DNA of 64,000 nucleotides from Nocardia takedensis NBRC 100417 (lineage in GTDB: Bacteria > Actinomycetota > Actinomycetes > Mycobacteriales > Mycobacteriaceae): assembly GCF_000308695.1 (NCBI RefSeq), contig NZ_BAGG01000093.1:124001-188000 (forward strand). Direction: 5' to 3'. A program made the translations under genes and the position numbers. Shown here piece after piece: positions 7,225 through 15,765 of the stretch. Position 1 is the first letter of the stretch, and every line of letters starts with the position of its first letter. The notes beneath the pieces were generated by a model that had not been told where the DNA came from, ran no database searches, and saw only the letters and a list, made by a program, of their open reading frames with translations.

Positions 7225-8735
7225 CGGTCCTCGACACCTCCCCAGCCCCCGCGGACGACACATCCCCCGACGGACGGCCCGAATCCCCACCGACAGCCAC
7301 CGGTCACCCGACCTCCACACCGACGACTACAGCCCCGCGCGAGCACCCGGACTGCCCCGATCTACATCCCGCGATCCGGCAGCGAATACCACGCCCGAGT
7401 GCGTTCTTCCGGCGACCACCGCGCCCCGGCACCACGCTCGCGGTCGCGATCGGGACACTGATCTCCTTGGCCCCCAATCTCCTTCCGCGCACCCCCGGCG
7501 CGCAGGCGATCCTGACGGCGTTGCTGGTTCTCCTCGGCCTCGCGGTGGCGGGGGTCTGGCGGTGGGTGTTGGGTCGGCGGATCGACGTGGACGCGCGATT
7601 CGCGGCTTGGCGGGTTCCGCTCGCGGTGCTCTCCGTCGCGCTGATCGCGGTGGCGGCGGTGCGGGCGGGGCATTGGCAGAACGGGTTGCGCGAGGCGATG
7701 GGGACGCCGCCGATCGGTCCGGGGTACTGGGTGCGCTGGGCGGTGGGGGCGACCGTGGTCGTGGCGGCGTGTCTGGGGGCGGCGCGGGGCGTCGGGTGGG
7801 TGGTGCGGGCATTGGGGCGGGTCCGGGCCGGCGCGGTGGGGGTGGCGGCGGCGCTGGCGGTGCACCTGGTGATCGCGCCGGCCGTGGTGGACGGTCGGCG
7901 CGCCGCCTATGCCGCCGCGGACGCCGTGATCGATCCTGGGGTCGACGCGCCGTTGTCGTCGTCGCGGTCGGGCAGTGCCGAGTCGGCGGTGCCGTGGGCG
8001 ACGTTGGGCGCGCAGGGCAGGCGGTTCGTCGCCCAGGCGCCCGCGGGCCCGACGACGGTGTACGTGGGTCTGGGTTCGGCGCCGGACCCGGCGGCGCGGG
8101 TGGCCTTGGCGGTGCGGGAACTGGAACGGTCCGGCGGGTTCGAGCGGGCGGCGCTGGTCCTGGCGATCCCGACGGGGTCGGGGTGGATCGACAGCGCGGC
8201 GAGCGAGGGGTTGGCGCGGCGGTTCGGGTCGGAGGTGGCGGTGGTGGGGGTGCAGTATTCGGCCGCGCCGAGTTGGGTGAGTTTCGTGTTCGGTCGGGCG
8301 GAGGCGATCCGGGTGACGCGCGCGCTGATGGCGGCGGTCGAGCGGGCGTTGGCGGACCGGCCGCACCGGCCGAAACTGTTCGTCTACGGGCAGAGTCTCG
8401 GCGCGACGGCGGGGAGCGCGGTCTTCGCCGACGACGCCGATCAGCGGCGGCGGACCTGCGCGGTGCTGTGGGCGGGTCCGCCGGGCGGGGCGGTGCATCG
8501 CGGGGGCGCGACGGTGTTGGCGAACAGTTCCGATCCGGTGGTGCGCTGGTCGGTGCCGCTGCTGTGGCGGTCGCCGGATCTGCGCGGGGTCCGTCGGGAC
8601 GCGCCGGTCCCGGCCTGGCTGCCGGTGGTCGGGTTCGTGCAGACCACCGCCGACCTGGTGGGGGCGCTGGACGCGCCGCGCGGGCACGGTCACCGGTACG
8701 GCACGGATCAGGGCACGGCCCTCGGGGACTGCTGA
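7221..8735 (+). CDS. Membrane alpha/beta hydrolase (Abhydrolase_9 type)
   Basis: Integral membrane hydrolase of 504 residues. After a Pro/Thr-rich cytoplasmic N-terminus come four to five transmembrane helices (about 70-225). The C-terminal alpha/beta hydrolase domain starts near 240 and has the nucleophile elbow GQSLGA with Ser392. This matches the paired Abhydrolase_9_N/Abhydrolase_9 architecture common in mycobacteria and nocardiae, whose substrate is not established; a lipid or ester is a reasonable guess. The GTG start overlaps the stop of the phospholipase-like gene by 4 bases, arguing that the two products act together on envelope lipids. Confidence is high for the fold, low for the substrate. 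Confidence 0.85.
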   Translation: MTVLDTSPAPADDTSPDGRPESPPTATGHPTSTPTTTAPREHPDCPDLHPAIRQRIPRPSAFFRRPPRPGTTLAVAIGTLISLAPNLLPRTPGAQAILTALLVLLGLAVAGVWRWVLGRRIDVDARFAAWRVPLAVLSVALIAVAAVRAGHWQNGLREAMGTPPIGPGYWVRWAVGATVVVAACLGAARGVGWVVRALGRVRAGAVGVAAALAVHLVIAPAVVDGRRAAYAAADAVIDPGVDAPLSSSRSGSAESAVPWATLGAQGRRFVAQAPAGPTTVYVGLGSAPDPAARVALAVRELERSGGFERAALVLAIPTGSGWIDSAASEGLARRFGSEVAVVGVQYSAAPSWVSFVFGRAEAIRVTRALMAAVERALADRPHRPKLFVYGQSLGATAGSAVFADDADQRRRTCAVLWAGPPGGAVHRGGATVLANSSDPVVRWSVPLLWRSPDLRGVRRDAPVPAWLPVVGFVQTTADLVGALDAPRGHGHRYGTDQGTALGDC

Positions 8736-8750
8736 ACCTTGCGACAGACA

Positions 8751-8764
8751 TAGAACTTGTTCTA
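8751..8764. promoter_or_regulatory. KstR-type operator palindrome
   Basis: TAGAACTTGTTCTA is a perfect 6-base inverted repeat around TT. It fits the published KstR consensus TnnAACnnGTTnnA (the TetR-family repressor of cholesterol catabolism in mycobacteria and rhodococci). It ends 10 bases before the ATG at 8775, so it must overlap the promoter or transcript start of that gene. Confidence 0.7.
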
Positions 8765-8774
8765 GTTTTTCCGC

Positions 8775-9221
8775 ATGGGATTCATCATCGACGAGACCGT
8801 CTACATCGACGCCCCCGCCGAGGTGGTGTGGCAGGTGCTCACCGACCTGCCCAGTTACGGCGAGTGGAATCCCTTCGTCTCGCGCTGCGAGAGCACCCTG
8901 GTCCCCGGCGACCCCATCGACATGCACGTCGCGCTGGTCGGCTCGACTCCGCGCAGGCAGCGCGAGTGGATGCGCAGCAACATCCCCGGCCGGGAACTGA
9001 GCTATTCGATGAAACCGGTCCCGCTCGGCGCGCTGCACAGCCTGCGCTCGCACACGCTCACCGCGGTGAGCGACACCCGCACCCGCTACGAATCGCATTT
9101 CCAGCTCGACGGCTGGCTGCACCCCGTCGTCGCGACCGCGCTCGGCCGACACCTGCGCCGCGGCTTCGACGGGATGACCGCGGGCGTGCAGCGACGGGCC
9201 GAGGCGCTGCGCACCGCCTGA
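8775..9221 (+). CDS. SRPBCC-superfamily protein (START-like)
   Basis: Cytoplasmic protein of 148 residues with the helix-grip SRPBCC fold: an N-terminal beta strand (VYIDAPAEVVWQVLTDLPSYGEWNPF), a central beta sheet and a long C-terminal helix (LGRHLRRGFDGMTAGVQ). Members bind hydrophobic ligands or act as cyclases/hydrolases; nothing here fixes the ligand. There is almost no space for a ribosome site between the KstR-type operator and the ATG, so the message may be leaderless. The operator suggests induction by sterol or a sterol-CoA, hence a hydrophobic steroid intermediate is a plausible ligand (inference). Confidence 0.85.
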   Translation: MGFIIDETVYIDAPAEVVWQVLTDLPSYGEWNPFVSRCESTLVPGDPIDMHVALVGSTPRRQREWMRSNIPGRELSYSMKPVPLGALHSLRSHTLTAVSDTRTRYESHFQLDGWLHPVVATALGRHLRRGFDGMTAGVQRRAEALRTA

Positions 9222-9281
9222 TCCCCAGGAGATCGCGGAGCCGACCGTTTCGCCGCGAGTCGCTCGGGCATCCGACGACAC

Positions 9282-9962
9282 GTGCAAGCGATCACGAGAT
9301 TCGAAGCCCTCGGCACTCTGACCTTCGCGGCCGCGCTCCTGGCGACCGGGACAGCCGCGGCGGACTCCGATCCGCCGCACATCGGCGGCGGGTCGGGCAT
9401 CGTGATCGACGACCAGGTCGGCTGCACGCTCACCACGGTCGGCCACGACGCGGCCGATCGGTTGGTCGGGTTGACCGCGGGCCACTGCGGCGAACCCGGC
9501 GCGGCGGTCTCGACCGAGGCCGATCCGAGCCGCGGCACGGTCGGGCGCATCGTGTATTCCGATCACCGATTGGACTACGCCGTCATCGAATTCGCGCCCG
9601 GCGCGATCGCGCCCACCGACCGGGTGGGCACCGCCGCCATCGTGGAGATCGGCGCGCCCGTGAACTTCCCCACCGTGGTGTGCAAGAAAGGGAGGACCAC
9701 CGGGACCACCTGCGGGGTCACCTGGGGTGATCTGGTCGGTCCCGCCTCCGACACCTGGAACCAACTGTGCGTGCTCGAGGGCGACTCGGGAGCGCCCGTG
9801 CTGGTGGGCGCGACACTGGTCGGGATGGTCAACGCCTACGCGGGCCCCGGCTGTCTGGGGCCGCAGATCGGCACCGACATCCAGGCGGTCGTCGCCGACC
9901 TCGACGCGCGCGCCGACATCGGCGCGGGCTTCCGCCCGATCCGACCCGACGCGGTCCGATGA
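9282..9962 (+). CDS. Secreted trypsin-like serine protease (S1 family)
   Basis: Exported protease of 226 residues. A signal peptide covers about residues 1-27 (ends TGTAAADS). The catalytic triad is readable: His68 in LTAGHCG, Asp98 in LDYAVIEF and Ser169 in GDSGAPV. Cys48/Cys69 and Cys134/Cys144 or Cys163 are placed to form disulfides. It is shorter than streptogrisins and lacks their propeptide, resembling the small secreted S1 proteases common in Nocardia. GTG start at 9282. It stands alone, with no obvious inhibitor or transporter beside it. Confidence 0.88.
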   Translation: MQAITRFEALGTLTFAAALLATGTAAADSDPPHIGGGSGIVIDDQVGCTLTTVGHDAADRLVGLTAGHCGEPGAAVSTEADPSRGTVGRIVYSDHRLDYAVIEFAPGAIAPTDRVGTAAIVEIGAPVNFPTVVCKKGRTTGTTCGVTWGDLVGPASDTWNQLCVLEGDSGAPVLVGATLVGMVNAYAGPGCLGPQIGTDIQAVVADLDARADIGAGFRPIRPDAVR

Positions 9963-10098: not shown

Positions 10099-11793
10099 AT
10101 GCGCTCGCTGTCCGGAACTCTCGCCGACACGACCACCGTGCACGTGCGGCTTCCCGCGCGGCGCGAACAACTCGGTCTGGTCCGCGCGGTCGCCGAAGCC
10201 GTCTCGGTCGACGCGGAGTACGCGCCCGAGGACATCGCCGACATCCGCCTGGCCCTCAACGAAGTAGCCACCGCGCTGATCGTCGAGGCGGTGCCGGGCT
10301 CGACCCTGGACTGCGCATTCGTCTACGACAGCGACCGGCTCACCGTGGAGGTCACCTCGTCCTCCTGGGCCGAGCACGGCATCGCCCACCGCGATATCGG
10401 CTGGCGCATCGTGCAGACGCTGACCACCGCCGCCAGCGCCACCCAGCAACCTTTCGACATCACCGTCTCCGGCTACCCGACCCACGTCGAGTTCGACTGG
10501 CGACGACATGCGCCGCGCCCCCACCACCCGGACTTCCCGGAGTTCGTCCCCGACGGGGACGCCCGGGTAGTGCACAGCGGGGCGTCCGACGACGGCGACC
10601 ACGACGGCGAAACGTCGCGCGAGGCCGTCCGCGATATCCGAGGGGACCGGCTCGAGAGCCGGGACCGCGCACCGCGTACGCATCGCGGTGCGCCGCATCG
10701 TCGGCACCGGGGGAATCACGGTGTCGCGTATCGAGCAGAATCGCCCCTCGGGCGGCCCGGCGAGACCCGCCGCGCCCGCGGAGCGCGCCGCCACGGCGGC
10801 GCGGCGGCGACCTGCGCCACACCACCCCGAGACGAGGGCCACGGAAGCCGCATGACTGCACTGAGCACCGACACCCCCGGTGAACTGGTCCACCCGGCCC
10901 TGTTCTACGACGGTGACGACGAGTACGTGAAGGGTCTGCTCCCGTTCATCCTGGACGGACTCACGCTGGGCGAACCGGTCGCGGTCGCCGCCCCGGAACC
11001 GCGACTGCGGGTGCTGCGCGACGCGCTGGGCTCCTCGGCGGCCGACGTGCACATGGTCGACATGGCCCGCGAGGGCCGCAATCCGGGACGGATCATCCCG
11101 GCGGTGCTCGGCGCGTTCGTCGAAGCCCACCCCGGCAAGCGGGTGCGGATCGTCGCCGAACCGGTCCGTTCCGGGCGCGAGGATCCGGCCTATCCGGCCT
11201 GTGTGCAGCACGAGGCCCTGATCAACACCGTGTTCGCCGGACGGGAGGTGACCATCGTGTGCCCGTACGACGTGTCCGTGGTCGACGAACGATGCCTCGA
11301 GGAAGCGGCGGCGACGCATCCGCTGCTGTGGGAGGGCGAACATCGGCGCACCAGCACCGCCTACGACCCGAACAGCATGGTCGAGCGCTACAACCAGCCG
11401 ATCCCCGAACCGGCCGACGCCGCCGAACTGGTGGTCGCCGAATCCGCCGACATGGCCACCGCGCGCCGCTGGGCCACCGAGCACGCGGGCGCGTGCGGGC
11501 TCGACGCGGGCCGGATCGCCGACCTGGAACTGGTCGTCACCGAACTGGCCACCAACGGCCTGTGCCACGGTGTCGGCCCCGCGCGCATCCGCATGTGGCA
11601 CGACGACGAGCGTCTGTTCTGCGCGGTGCACGATTCAGGTCACATGGCCGATCCGCTGGCCGGACGCAGGCAGCCCGCCGACCCCCGGACACCGGGCGGC
11701 CGCGGACTGCTGCTGGTCCATCAACTCTGCGATCTGGTGCGCACGCACACCGGGCCCGAGGGCACTACCCAGTACACGATGATGGATCTGTGA
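10099..11793 (+). CDS. Fused RsbW-like ATPase / MEDS-domain / ATPase regulator
   Basis: One uninterrupted frame of 564 residues made of two regulatory units. Residues 1-145 are an anti-sigma-type ATPase domain (DIRLALNEVATALI, DIGWRIVQTLT) much like the RsbW encoded at 12603-13028. Residues 146-250 form an Arg/His/Pro-rich linker that looks non-coding. From Met252 (ATG at 10852, with GGAA 5 bases before it) starts a MEDS sensory domain (HPALFYDGDDEYVKGLLPFI) followed by a second HATPase domain (ADLELVVTELATNGLCHG, PGGRGLLLVH). In related genomes I would expect two genes, so a lost stop codon between them, or re-initiation at 10852, is possible. Role: partner switching or serine phosphorylation in the SigF stress circuit (inference). 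Confidence 0.8.
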   Translation: MRSLSGTLADTTTVHVRLPARREQLGLVRAVAEAVSVDAEYAPEDIADIRLALNEVATALIVEAVPGSTLDCAFVYDSDRLTVEVTSSSWAEHGIAHRDIGWRIVQTLTTAASATQQPFDITVSGYPTHVEFDWRRHAPRPHHPDFPEFVPDGDARVVHSGASDDGDHDGETSREAVRDIRGDRLESRDRAPRTHRGAPHRRHRGNHGVAYRAESPLGRPGETRRARGARRHGGAAATCATPPRDEGHGSRMTALSTDTPGELVHPALFYDGDDEYVKGLLPFILDGLTLGEPVAVAAPEPRLRVLRDALGSSAADVHMVDMAREGRNPGRIIPAVLGAFVEAHPGKRVRIVAEPVRSGREDPAYPACVQHEALINTVFAGREVTIVCPYDVSVVDERCLEEAAATHPLLWEGEHRRTSTAYDPNSMVERYNQPIPEPADAAELVVAESADMATARRWATEHAGACGLDAGRIADLELVVTELATNGLCHGVGPARIRMWHDDERLFCAVHDSGHMADPLAGRRQPADPRTPGGRGLLLVHQLCDLVRTHTGPEGTTQYTMMDL

Positions 11794-11797
11794 GGCG

Positions 11798-12613
11798 CTA
11801 GTCGCGCATCGCCTGATCGCGCAGCGAGTTCAGCGTCTTGGTGAGGATGCGCGAGACCTGCATCTGCGAGCACCCGAGCCGTTCGGCGATCTCGCTCTGG
11901 GTCATCGAGTCGAAGAACCGCCAGATCAGCACTTGGCGCTGCCGCTCGGGCAGCGCCGCGATCAACGGACGCACCGCGAGGTAGTCCTCCACCGAGCGGT
12001 AGCTCTCGTCGGGCGCGCCCAGCGTGTCCAGCACCGAGGCGGGCGAGCCGTCCTGATCGTTGTCGGGGGCGGGATCGATCGGCGCGGCCTGGTAGGCGTT
12101 GCGGGCGATCAGCGCCTGGGTGACCTCGTTGAGTTCCGCGCCGATCTCCTCGGCGATCTCGCGCGCCCGGGGCATCCGGCCCAGTTCGTGGGTCAGCTTC
12201 TCGGTGGCGGGGCCGATGGTCTGCTGGATCTCCTTGAGTCGGCGCGGAACCCGCACCGCCCACGTGTGATCGCGGAAATGCCTGCGGACCTCGCCCATGA
12301 TGGTGGGCACCGCGAAGGACAGGAACGACGCGCCGTAACTGGGATCGAACCGATCCACCGCCTGCACCATGCCCATGCGGGCGATCTGGAGCAGGTCGTC
12401 GAAGTTCTCCCCGCGCCCCGAGAACCGCCGCGCGATATTCGCCGCGAGCGGCAGACACCGCTGGATCAAATCCTGACGCAGCGTGGCACGAGCCGGATCG
12501 TCCGGATCGAGTTCGGCCAGCCTGGCGAACTCGGGTTCCAGGTTGTCGTAGGTCTCGTTGCCCGAGTGGCGGCGATTGCCCGATCCGGTGTGCTCGGTGG
12601 AGCTATCGGCCAT
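11798..12613 (-). CDS. sigF: RNA polymerase sigma factor, SigF/SigB stress type
   Basis: Group 3 sigma factor of 271 residues. Region 2 is evident (ARRFSGRGENFDDLLQIARMGMVQAVDRFDP), then region 3 (RVPRRLKEIQQTI), and region 4 with a helix-turn-helix (MTQSEIAERLGCSQMQVSRIL). This type directs general-stress and stationary-phase transcription in actinobacteria and is held inactive by an RsbW/UsfX anti-sigma factor. That factor is encoded immediately upstream and overlaps by 11 bases, as in the mycobacterial usfX-sigF operon. A SigF-like promoter precedes the pair, suggesting autoregulation. It converges on the fused ATPase gene with 4 bases between. Confidence 0.93.
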   Translation of the reverse strand: MADSSTEHTGSGNRRHSGNETYDNLEPEFARLAELDPDDPARATLRQDLIQRCLPLAANIARRFSGRGENFDDLLQIARMGMVQAVDRFDPSYGASFLSFAVPTIMGEVRRHFRDHTWAVRVPRRLKEIQQTIGPATEKLTHELGRMPRAREIAEEIGAELNEVTQALIARNAYQAAPIDPAPDNDQDGSPASVLDTLGAPDESYRSVEDYLAVRPLIAALPERQRQVLIWRFFDSMTQSEIAERLGCSQMQVSRILTKTLNSLRDQAMRD

Positions 12614-13028
12614 CGGTGCCGCCCCGCACCCACTCGAAGTCGACGACGGTGGGATAGCCGTTGCGGGTGGCGTCGAACTCGGTCTGCGTCGCCGCCACCG
12701 AACGGGTCAGCGTCCGCACGATGTGCCAGCCGAAGCTGTCCTGACTCGGCGGGTTCTGCTGGGCCGAGACCGACCGCACGCGCACGTTCATGGACTCGGA
12801 GTCGCTGTAGGTGAACTCGCAGTCCAGGGTGGTGTGCTCGGCGGCGTCCAGGATCAGGCCGGTGGCCACCTCGTCGAGCGCCAGACGGATGTCGGTGACC
12901 TCGTCGACCGCGAAATCGGCCATGAAAGCGACCGTCTCGACCAGAGCGCGCAGCATGGCCAACTGCTCCAACTGCGCGGGCACCCTCACCTCGATCGTGG
13001 TCGGCGCGCCCGTGGTCCACTCTGCCAT
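12603..13028 (-). CDS. rsbW: Anti-sigma factor RsbW/UsfX-like serine kinase
   Basis: Small GHKL-fold ATPase of 141 residues that should bind SigF and phosphorylate an anti-anti-sigma STAS protein. Visible motifs are the N-box region DIRLALDEVATGLI and a later DSFGWHIVRTLTRSV stretch; the ATP lid is short as usual for RsbW. The start ATG at 13028 has GAGG 8 bases upstream. Its stop lies inside the first codons of sigF, so stoichiometry is coupled by translation. The STAS partner starts at 13281 on the opposite strand. The gene is paralogous to the N-terminal domain of the fused protein at 10099. Confidence 0.9.
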   Translation of the reverse strand: MAEWTTGAPTTIEVRVPAQLEQLAMLRALVETVAFMADFAVDEVTDIRLALDEVATGLILDAAEHTTLDCEFTYSDSESMNVRVRSVSAQQNPPSQDSFGWHIVRTLTRSVAATQTEFDATRNGYPTVVDFEWVRGGTDGR

Positions 13029-13074
13029 ACCTACCGCCTCGTCGAGATGTAGAGCCCGTCCGGAGCGGCCAGAA

Positions 13075-13101
13075 TAACCCGACCGGTCACAGGGGTGAAC
13101 C
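13075..13101 (-). promoter_or_regulatory. Candidate SigF-type promoter for rsbW-sigF
   Basis: Read on the minus strand: GGTTC, 16 bases, then GGGTTA. It is close to the SigF consensus and about 47 bases upstream of the rsbW start. Autoregulation of this operon by SigF is established in mycobacteria; here it is inferred from the pattern. Confidence 0.45.
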
Positions 13102-13206
13102 AGGGGCATGTCGGAATGCGAAGTCGGGTAGGTTGACCTCGAAGGCTCATCCTCTGCGCCGCTACCGGATTCGGCAGAGGTTCGACACGCAGCGGAGGTA
13201 AAGCAC

Positions 13207-13284
13207 GTGATGGCGACCCCGAGCGCACCGGAAGTGCGCACAGTCACCGACCGCACGGCCCGCGCCGGGGTGGCGGTCCGATGA
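13207..13284 (+). CDS. Mini-ORF translationally coupled to the STAS gene
   Basis: A 25-codon frame (GTG at 13207, followed directly by ATG) with a perfect Shine-Dalgarno GGAGGT seven bases upstream. Its TGA overlaps the ATG of the STAS gene (ATGA at 13281-13284). The STAS gene itself has only a weak ribosome site, so this ORF probably delivers ribosomes to it. An inverted repeat CCTCTGC/GCAGAGG (13151-13157 and 13174-13180) lies in front of the ribosome site. The peptide has no recognisable motif. Either a regulatory leader or an artefact of a mis-set STAS start. Confidence 0.5.
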   Translation: MMATPSAPEVRTVTDRTARAGVAVR

Positions 13285-13631
13285 GCACGGAAGGCAAGAA
13301 TTTGCTGCTCGATGTCCAGAGCTCCACGGTCGGCTCGACCGCCGTGCTCACCGTCAACGGCGAAGTCGACGTCGCCTCGGCCCCGCAGTTGCAGTCCGCG
13401 ATCGAGGAGGCGCTGAAAGCGCAGCCGCCGGTGCTGGTGGTGGATCTGTCGGGCGTGGGGTTCTTCGGCTCCGCGGGCCTGAGCGTGCTGCTGGTGGCCA
13501 GTGAGGCCGCCCCGGCGGGCGGCCTGCGCGTGGTCGCCTCCGACCAGGTGCGCCGCCCGATCGAGGTGACGGGGCTGGACAAGCTCCTGGCGCTGTTCGA
13601 CGACGTGGATCGGGCCGTCGAGGCCGAGTGA
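13281..13631 (+). CDS. Anti-anti-sigma factor, STAS domain
   Basis: Single STAS domain protein of 116 residues (SpoIIAA/RsbV type). It shows the strand VLTVNGEVDVASAP and the conserved helix start GFFGSAGLSVLL, where Ser64 is the likely phosphorylation site. In partner switching the unphosphorylated form binds RsbW and releases SigF; RsbW phosphorylates it and a PP2C phosphatase reactivates it. All three partners are encoded within 4 kb here. It is divergent from rsbW-sigF and convergent with the regulator operon. Translation is probably coupled to the mini-ORF ending at 13284. Confidence 0.92.
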   Translation: MSTEGKNLLLDVQSSTVGSTAVLTVNGEVDVASAPQLQSAIEEALKAQPPVLVVDLSGVGFFGSAGLSVLLVASEAAPAGGLRVVASDQVRRPIEVTGLDKLLALFDDVDRAVEAE

Positions 13632-13657
13632 CCGCGGTCGCGGCTGTCGCGGCGGGG

Positions 13658-14098
13658 TCACCGCTGCGGCAGCCGGACCACCTGGACGAAGAAGTCGTCG
13701 ATCTGCTTGATGGCCGCGATGAACTGGTCGAGGTCGACCGGTTTGGTCACATACGCGTTGGCGTGCAGTTTGTAGCTGCGCAGGATGTCCTCCTCGGCCG
13801 AGGACGTGGTGAGCACCACCACCGGGATGTGGGCCAGATCCGGATCGGATTTGATCTTCTCCAGCACCTGCCTGCCGTCGTATTTGGGCAGGTTCAGGTC
13901 GAGCAGGATGAGATCGGGCCTGGGCACGTCGGCGTACCGCCCCTGGCGGTACAGGAATTCCAGGGCCTCCTCGCCGTCGTGGGCGACGTGCAGGGTGTTG
14001 CCGATCCGATTGTCCTCGAACGCCTCCCTGGTCATCAGTTCGTCGCCCGGATCGTCCTCGACGAGCAGGATGTCGATGGGTCTGCCGGATACCGTCAC
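13658..14098 (-). CDS. Single-domain response regulator (Rcp1-like)
   Basis: Stand-alone receiver of 146 residues with no output domain. Acidic pocket E14-D15-D16, phospho-acceptor D67 in LILLDLNLP, Thr/Ser in VVLTTSSAEED and Lys in AYVTKPVDL are all present. The insertion YRQGRYADVPRPD before the D67 strand is typical of the Rcp1/phytochrome-associated class. The GTG start at 14098 overlaps the stop of the upstream histidine kinase (GTGA), so it is the last gene of a three-gene operon and the likely phosphate acceptor of that kinase. Confidence 0.92.
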   Translation of the reverse strand: MTVSGRPIDILLVEDDPGDELMTREAFEDNRIGNTLHVAHDGEEALEFLYRQGRYADVPRPDLILLDLNLPKYDGRQVLEKIKSDPDLAHIPVVVLTTSSAEEDILRSYKLHANAYVTKPVDLDQFIAAIKQIDDFFVQVVRLPQR

Positions 14099-15765
14099 GC
14101 GGTGAGCTCCTTGTCGGATGGTCGGTCCGAGACGGCGACGGCCGGGTCGGAGGGTTCGGGGTCGAACAGGGTGAAGACGAAACGGGTGCCGCCCGAACCG
14201 CCGCCGTCGTAGTCCGCGTCGAGCCGGATACGGCCGCCGTGGTATTCGACGATCTTCTTGCACAGGGCCAACCCGATACCTGTCCCACTGTATTCGTCGC
14301 GGCTGTGCAGCCGTTGGAAGATCACGAAGACCTTGTCGGCGAATTCGGGAGCGATGCCGATGCCGTTGTCGCACACCGCGAATCGCCATCCCGGGGTGGG
14401 GGCCGGCTCCGGTTCGCATTCGACGCGCACCACCGGCGCGCGATCCGGGTGCCGGAATTTGACGGCGTTGCCGATCAGGTTCTGCCACAGCATGGTCAGC
14501 AGGGTCGGGTCGCCGGTGAGTTCGGGCAGGCTCTCGGGACGCTCGATGACCGCGCCGGTCTCCTCGATGCTCGAGGCGAGGTTCTGCACCGCCTTGTCCA
14601 GGGTGGCCTCCAGCGCCACCGCCTCGGTGCGGTCGGCCACCCGCCCCACGCGCGAGAAGGTGAGCAGGTCGTTGATCAGCACCTGCATCCGCTTCGCCCC
14701 GTCGACGGCGTAGCCGATGTACTGGGAGGCGCGGTCGTCGAGCTGATCGCCGTAGCGCTTCTCCAGCAACTGACAGAACGAGGCCACCTTGCGCAGCGGC
14801 TCTTGCAGATCGTGGGAGGCCACGTAGGCGAACTGCTCGAGTTCGGCGTTGGAGCGGCGCAGTTCGATGGTCTGGGCGTCCAGGTTGGCGGCCTGTTTCT
14901 CCAAGGTGGCCTCCTGCACGCGCGAGGAGGCCAACTCGGCGACGATCCTGCGTCGCATCCCCTCCACCGCCTCGGCGACGGTGGCCAGATCGGAAGGACC
15001 GTGCGCGGTGATCTCGTGCTCGAAATCACCGCCCGCCACCTTCAGCGAGGAATCCTCGAGGTAGGCCAGCGGCCGGGCCACCAGCCGCCGGACCAGCAAT
15101 GTCAGCACGACGCTGGTGATCAGGAAGGCCACGATCATGCCGGTGAGCACCACGTCGCGGACCAGGCGCACGTGACGCAGTTGGGCGCGATCCTCGGCGG
15201 CGGTCGCGGCGAGTTGGTCGTTCTGTTCGACGGAGCGCGCCCGGATCTGGTCGAAGAGCGTCTTGCCGCGCGCCGCGGCGAAATCGTCGGTGGCCGGGAT
15301 GCCGGGCACGACGTTGCGGGCCAGCGGTTCGGCGTAACCCTCGCGCCAGTTCGCCGCCGCGGTCTCGACCGCTTCCAGGTCCTCGAGCAGCACCGACCGA
15401 TCGGCGAGCAGACTCCGCAGCCGCGTCACCGCCGCGGCCTCGTCCTGTTTGCCTTGCAGGTAGGGCTCGAGGAACTGCTGATCGGCGGTGATCGCGTAGC
15501 CGCGGATGCCGGTCTCCTGGTTGATCAGCGCGGCCTGGAGCCGATACGCCTCGGCGGTGGCGGGCTGCACGTCGTCGATCAAGCGGTCGGCCACCCGATT
15601 GCCCTGGGTGATGAGGGTGGCGCCCGCGATCGCGAACACCAGCAGCAGCAGAGCCATGACGCCCAGCACGATCTGGAACCACGCCTGCACGGTGAAGCGG
15701 CCCGCGAAATCCGCGCGCCGGTCCGAGATCCGTCGCGAGGACGACGGCTGTTGGGTCGATGTCAC
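14095..15765 (-). CDS. CHASE3-HAMP sensor histidine kinase
   Basis: Membrane kinase of 556 residues. TM1 spans about 30-53, an extracytoplasmic CHASE3-like helical domain about 55-203 (NQETGIRGYAITADQQFLEPY), TM2 about 204-227, then HAMP about 228-280. A coiled linker leads to HisKA with FAYVASHDLQEPL (phospho-His318) and HATPase (NLIGNAVKF, DNGIGI, SGTGIGLALCKKIVEYHGG). This layout is the bacteriophytochrome/Rcp1-type kinase that phosphorylates single-domain regulators such as its downstream neighbour. The GTG start at 15765 overlaps the stop of the PP2C gene. The stimulus is unknown; the operon context points to control of SigF. Confidence 0.93.
   Translation of the reverse strand: MTSTQQPSSSRRISDRRADFAGRFTVQAWFQIVLGVMALLLLVFAIAGATLITQGNRVADRLIDDVQPATAEAYRLQAALINQETGIRGYAITADQQFLEPYLQGKQDEAAAVTRLRSLLADRSVLLEDLEAVETAAANWREGYAEPLARNVVPGIPATDDFAAARGKTLFDQIRARSVEQNDQLAATAAEDRAQLRHVRLVRDVVLTGMIVAFLITSVVLTLLVRRLVARPLAYLEDSSLKVAGGDFEHEITAHGPSDLATVAEAVEGMRRRIVAELASSRVQEATLEKQAANLDAQTIELRRSNAELEQFAYVASHDLQEPLRKVASFCQLLEKRYGDQLDDRASQYIGYAVDGAKRMQVLINDLLTFSRVGRVADRTEAVALEATLDKAVQNLASSIEETGAVIERPESLPELTGDPTLLTMLWQNLIGNAVKFRHPDRAPVVRVECEPEPAPTPGWRFAVCDNGIGIAPEFADKVFVIFQRLHSRDEYSGTGIGLALCKKIVEYHGGRIRLDADYDGGGSGGTRFVFTLFDPEPSDPAVAVSDRPSDKELTA

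Follow-up and report, generated by a model that had tools for sequence, protein, structure and literature searches.

In Nocardia takedensis NBRC 100417, a lone gene encoding a small SRPBCC protein begins immediately downstream of a short palindrome that resembles the operators of KstR, the principal regulator by which actinobacteria switch cholesterol breakdown on and off. The window analysed comprises 64,000 nucleotides of contig NZ_BAGG01000093.1 (assembly GCF_000308695.1, positions 124,001 to 188,000 of the forward strand), and positions given without a contig name refer to it. The gene extends over 8775..9221 on the + strand, stop codon included, and its product of 148 amino acids is assigned to Polyketide_cyc2, with a helix-grip (START-like) fold, on the basis of the open reading frame (ORF), Pfam and a structural model. 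The palindrome, TAGAACTTGTTCTA, occupies 8751..8764 (+ strand) and is separated by 10 bases from the ATG at 8775; it fits the consensus TnnAACnnGTTnnA given in the accessible text of Kendall 2007 (PMC1995591). An earlier reading of this DNA from the sequence alone (the sequence-only reading) had described an exact KstR-type fit at this distance from the ATG, and this was confirmed from the sequence.

The pattern TNNAACNNGTTNNA has one exact match in the window, namely TAGAACTTGTTCTA, and in 100 dinucleotide shuffles of the window the mean number of matches was 0.08, with at least one match in 8 of the 100. In the genome as a whole (8.03 Mb) it matches 60 times, as against 25 times for a reversed control. 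About half of the exact matches in the genome may be noise, given the control count and given that 23 of the 45 exact matches in the fetched loci fall within ORFs, as called with a simple script. The stricter form TAGAACNNGTTNNA gave 19 forward and 17 reverse rows genome-wide, compared with 3 and 0 for the control; when each is counted once, these rows correspond to 30 places, six of which are perfect TAGAACNNGTTCTA sequences, including the box in the window and that of kstR itself. On a weight matrix built from the 47 published KstR sites of Kendall 2007 (Table 3, PMC1995591), the window box scores 20.9 bits, the published sites ranging from 12.7 to 26.3 bits with a median of 23.3, and the second-best site within the window reaches 11.7 bits.

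A true KstR gene is present in the same genome. A profile search yielded a single protein exceeding the NCBIfam cut-off (335 bits versus 280), encoded at C258:93815-94360, and the interval that separates kstR from an opposite-strand gene holds a perfect box, at C258:94545. The same arrangement, with a box between kstR and fadE34, has been described for mycobacteria and Nocardia farcinica in the accessible text of PMC1995591, the opposite-strand gene here being compared by position only. Boxes also occur at sterol genes, one of them 117 bases upstream of hsaA, with both HsaA (698 bits over 450) and HsaD (504 over 400) passing their cut-offs, and another, on contig C257, close to where a cyp125 homologue begins (642 bits against steroid C26-monooxygenase). 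Further genes with a box near the start encode steroid 5-alpha-reductase-like, acetoacetate-decarboxylase-like, wax-ester-synthase-like and thioesterase-like proteins and F420-linked oxidoreductases. The available part of PMC4810484 predicts steroid degradation for genera including Nocardia. The view that the SRPBCC gene stands far from any sterol cluster agrees with the location of these sterol genes on other contigs, C257 and C258, with the limit that the contigs are unordered and the genes of the window only partly annotated.

Many TetR paralogues exist, and one TetR gene adjacent to a box in this genome is weakly KstR-like (45.4 bits, cut-off 280), such that a different TetR regulator might be imagined to use the box. 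We regard this as very improbable, since the next match to the KstR model in the genome scores only 54.7 bits and the same box is found at kstR itself, at hsaA and at cyp125.

Two additional sites were recorded on other contigs. A perfect box, TAGAACATGTTCTA, at C174:349346 (L044) lies 59 bases ahead of a gene for a membrane protein of the steroid 5-alpha-reductase type (PF02544, 141.7 bits), and a box TGGAACCTGTTCTA is located 18 bases before the start of a SnoaL-like, possibly ketosteroid-isomerase-like, gene (L056:6205-6579, C235).

Orthologs of the SRPBCC protein were found in all 35 genus relatives examined and, in a wider search, in each of 150 genus genomes, its own included, with a best E value of 7.6e-45 or lower in every one. 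Upstream regions were covered for 43 of these 150 genomes (36 plus 7) and for 72 named Nocardia loci which may include some of the other 107. Among the 36 genomes, comprising N. takedensis and the 35 relatives, 32 have an exact proximal box, three have one with a single mismatch and one lacks it; the box is also exact in all seven of the further genomes. The named loci are the best 80 of 367 loci from a scan of named genomes; of these 80, 72 are from Nocardia, five from Mycolicibacterium/Mycobacterium and three from Nevskia metagenome-assembled genomes (MAGs). The 72 Nocardia loci show 66 exact and six one-mismatch boxes, with only two additional exact boxes elsewhere in their 384,931 bases, and for 65 of the 66 exact boxes the distance to the start of the match is 7-15 bases (21 bases for the remaining one). 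When the window and all 72 named Nocardia loci were aligned (73 rows), the AAC and GT columns of the box were conserved in all rows. The two outer positions agreed in 70 rows (T) and 72 rows (A), and the final T of GTT did so in 71; the flanking columns 8736-8750 were mostly 23-53% conserved.

The box is not confined to Nocardia. In a second genus, g51, nine genomes carry orthologs showing 47-52% identity, and in all nine an exact box begins 24-25 bases ahead of the match. Tsukamurella tyrosinosolvens has the exact box TGGAACATGTTCTA within an upstream sequence that is near-identical to that of one g51 genome, and g51 is therefore probably Tsukamurella. The pattern TNGAACNNGTTCNA occurs 11, 14, 14 and 16 times in four g51 genomes, with control values of 1, 1, 0 and 0. 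KstR exceeds its cut-off in 38 of 60 genomes tested, among them every one of the 36 genus genomes and two genomes from other families. Of the nine g51 genomes, eight pass the KstR cut-off, and in the ninth, G182, the match is in two pieces with a broken frame. The two overlapping model pieces in G182 (L135/L136) may stem from an error in sequencing or from kstR having been lost recently, and the SRPBCC box of this genome is intact. One genome of a further group, g30, has a one-mismatch box (L104).

A chance origin of the window box could be argued from the 25 genome matches of the reversed control and from a site score under the median of the known sites. It is rejected because the box is conserved upstream of the orthologs, all 72 named Nocardia loci having it in exact or one-mismatch form and g51 retaining it as well, and we consider its probability to be negligible.

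The gene neighbourhood of one ortholog also points towards steroids. In G073, which represents a third genus (g36, 66% complete), the ortholog starts two bases after the stop codon of a MaoC-type hydratase gene, which is itself preceded by a gene for a PaaE-like reductase (243.7 bits, below its cut-off) that we read as KshB. Further upstream on the same strand lies kstD (902 bits over 788), together with about 1.2 kb without a called gene.

Judged from these comparisons, we are confident, short of certainty, that KstR uses the box as a real operator to repress the lone SRPBCC gene, and this uncharacterised gene very probably adds a new member to the known KstR regulon. The placement in the cholesterol regulon advanced in the sequence-only reading thereby gains strong support from the presence of KstR, the retention of the box in two genera and the neighbourhood in G073.

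A number of observations weigh against this conclusion. The window box lies below the median of the published sites and 35 of the 47 outscore it, so that it ranks as a good site and not a top one. Proximal boxes are absent from one Nocardia genome, G006, the sole such case among the 36, and the kstR site of g51 itself is present only in a one-mismatch form. No box was detected on the G073 contig, where the best site scored 6.2 bits, or upstream of the five Mycolicibacterium/Mycobacterium orthologs, and KstR exceeded its cut-off in all four of the Mycolicibacterium/Mycobacterium genomes that were tested, Mycobacterium sp. ST-F2 (L212) lying outside this test. The three Nevskia MAG loci yielded neither a box nor KstR. 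Conversely, G046 and G059 carry KstR and no SRPBCC ortholog was found in them, and the gene is therefore not general to users of KstR. The -35-like columns of the proposed promoter (see below) are poorly conserved, at 32-52% of the 73 rows. Finally, KstR has been viewed as a more general lipid regulator in the accessible part of PMC3388012, in which case membership of the regulon does not prove a role in sterol metabolism. The expectation that the box should recur upstream of orthologs thus holds for Nocardia and g51 and fails for the five Mycolicibacterium/Mycobacterium and three Nevskia loci, G006 and G073. In G043, from another family and with a protein of 37% identity, no box was found close to the SRPBCC gene.

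A phylogenetic tree, constructed without the Tsukamurella record and with 19 of its 55 inner branches open, groups the five Mycolicibacterium rows with Nocardia niigatensis (96/82) and places the three Nevskia rows together with a single group of Nocardia (93/94, below the star). This grouping with Nocardia suggests that the boxless copies in Mycolicibacterium and Nevskia arose by horizontal transfer out of Nocardia and acquired new promoters. The Mycolicibacterium/Mycobacterium orthologs (L206, L208, L212, L216, L217) have in common a different conserved leader. In the Nevskia MAGs, which belong to the Pseudomonadota (L177, L197, L205), the SRPBCC protein is 61-63% identical to that of Nocardia, which may reflect either transfer or a binning error. 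In G006 (L090), two imperfect copies of the GGAACGCGTTCC unit are found roughly 80-100 bases before the start, perhaps representing a relocated operator.

Around the box, putative promoter elements can be read from the sequence. A weak -35-like hexamer, TTGCGA, lies at 8739..8744 (+ strand) and a -10-like hexamer, TAGTTT, at 8763..8768 (+ strand), with a spacing of 18 bases, and the box fills most of the gap and shares its last two bases, TA, with the -10-like hexamer. In the upstream alignment T8766 is conserved in 71 of the 73 rows and T8768 in 61. Some orthologs show TTGACG or TTGATC at the -35-like place and some TAATTT at the -10-like place, and others carry TATTGT slightly downstream of the latter. 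When 8600-9400 was scanned for consensus promoters and terminators, none was detected and, given also the variable -35-like columns, the promoter is offered here as a putative one. No Shine-Dalgarno sequence was seen before the SRPBCC ATG, and the usual spacing would place the transcription start approximately at the ATG, such that the mRNA is likely to be leaderless. In the accessible text of Kendall 2007 (PMC1995591) the kstR box is described as partly overlapping the -10 element, and that of PMC5348764 proposes a leaderless start for the Rhodococcus ruber gene kstD3, where KstR boxes are likewise present, and reports that KstR is released by 3-oxo-4-cholestenoic acid or a coenzyme A (CoA) thioester.

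We infer the following course of events for KstR binding at the window site, repression, induction, a leaderless start and a steroid ligand. KstR bound at 8751-8764 would cover the stretch between the -35- and -10-like elements together with the first bases of the latter, and would thus block the polymerase from starting. Early cholesterol catabolites, either 3-oxo-4-cholestenoic acid or a CoA thioester, would then bind KstR and take it off the DNA, and the derepressed gene would give rise to a probably leaderless SRPBCC mRNA produced along with the remainder of the sterol regulon. The encoded cavity protein would most probably handle a hydrophobic steroid or steroid-CoA intermediate, whether as binder, carrier or accessory enzyme.

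The identity and the predicted fold of the protein, as given in the sequence-only reading, are both supported. Pfam assigns it to PF10604 (Polyketide_cyc2) with 63.7 bits against a cut-off of 27.4, and an AlphaFold2 model from 42 sequences is confident (pLDDT, the predicted local distance difference test, 94.6) and matches helix-grip structures with Z scores of 14-17. The nearest structure is ZhuI (Z 17.1, root-mean-square deviation 2.4, 142 aligned), followed by MSMEG_5634 (Z 16.1), TcmN (15.9) and MSMEG_0129 (15.8), and no PDB entry matches the sequence better than MSMEG_0129 (E 4.4e-05). The polyketide aromatase/cyclases ZhuI and TcmN share the helix-grip fold over the whole chain and differ in sequence, with about 15-20% identity, and the same fold is found in MSMEG_0129 and MSMEG_5634 of Mycobacterium smegmatis with an identity of only 14-16%. 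Both protein alignments show seven invariant residues, N32, E64, Y77, S89, R91, Y105 and S107, which may face the pocket.

These data bear on the possibility that the operator is real and that the protein is an enzyme acting on a sterol intermediate, as a hydrolase, isomerase, cyclase or thioester-acting protein, and not a binder or carrier. The helix-grip folds nearest in structure, ZhuI and TcmN, are enzymes, the invariant residues are polar, and enzyme genes adjoin the ortholog in G073. On the other hand, Arg69 of TcmN, which we take to be catalytically important, aligns with Asn69 of the window protein in a weak alignment of about 23 bits, and we consider an enzymatic role possible and rather less probable than its absence. 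A structure of the TcmN R69A mutant exists (2res). A function as polyketide aromatase/cyclase, specifically, was rejected, the catalytic arginine of TcmN being unmatched in that weak alignment.

It is also conceivable that KstR controls the gene and that the protein serves general lipid or envelope handling and not sterol breakdown. The wax-ester-synthase-like gene with a nearby box in the same genome is in keeping with such a role, as is the START-fold nature of the structural neighbour MSMEG_0129, and a role in regulating transcription has been proposed for the START protein Mtsp17 (PMC8049324, accessible part). The only steroid-type neighbourhood found, that in G073, is nevertheless of the ring-degradation type, and we consider a general lipid role unlikely.

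Returning to sterols, a link between the protein and steroids is plausible from its regulation taken together with the one gene neighbourhood in G073, and the case for a steroid-related ligand or substrate appears to us evenly balanced. We attach similarly divided confidence to the broader proposal that this genus-wide protein is an unrecognised part of cholesterol breakdown, a START-like pocket which would carry, shield or convert a steroid or steroid-CoA and would be switched by KstR in Nocardia and Tsukamurella.

The system closest to that described here is the mycobacterial KstR regulon (Kendall 2007, PMC1995591, accessible text), with which it shares the 14-base palindrome, a KstR over the family cut-off and, as read by eye, a box overlapping a putative -10-like element; the Mycolicibacterium SRPBCC orthologs are without the box. 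In the accessible part of PMC5348764, the kstD3-hsd4B-choG transcript of Rhodococcus ruber resembles the window gene in its KstR boxes and in the proposal that its leaderless start lies close to the promoter, and the SRPBCC ortholog of G073 likewise has kstD and a hydratase gene nearby. No SRPBCC gene is named for that transcript in the same accessible part, and the Nocardia gene stands alone. We found no SRPBCC gene linked to KstR in the open literature, subscription papers, supplementary gene lists and the gene identities in Table 3 of PMC1995591 being outside the search, and no description of a KstR-controlled START-fold protein in the literature searched, with subscription papers and supplements again outside it. 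A protein called KstR in a study of brasilicardin in Nocardia terpenica is encoded beside nitrogen-metabolism genes and, in the accessible text, seems to be a different TetR protein.

A KstR-type operator retained across two genera, on an uncharacterised gene that all the Nocardia genomes searched contain, may indicate that a step or a carrier is still missing from a sterol pathway of importance both to steroid biotechnology and to growth on sterols. The system, a single promoter and a single soluble protein of small size, also makes a simple target.

Upstream of the SRPBCC gene in the window lies an Abhydrolase_9 (Pfam) gene. A conserved neighbour in Nocardia was sought and rejected, the commonest being an upstream same-strand family present in only 36 of the 72 loci. 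Downstream, the next ORF (9282-9962) weakly resembles the Rv1815 serine proteinase family (29.9 bits, cut-off 175), and the ORFs in 10099-14488 appear by eye to constitute a group of stress sigma-factor, anti-sigma and response-regulator genes.
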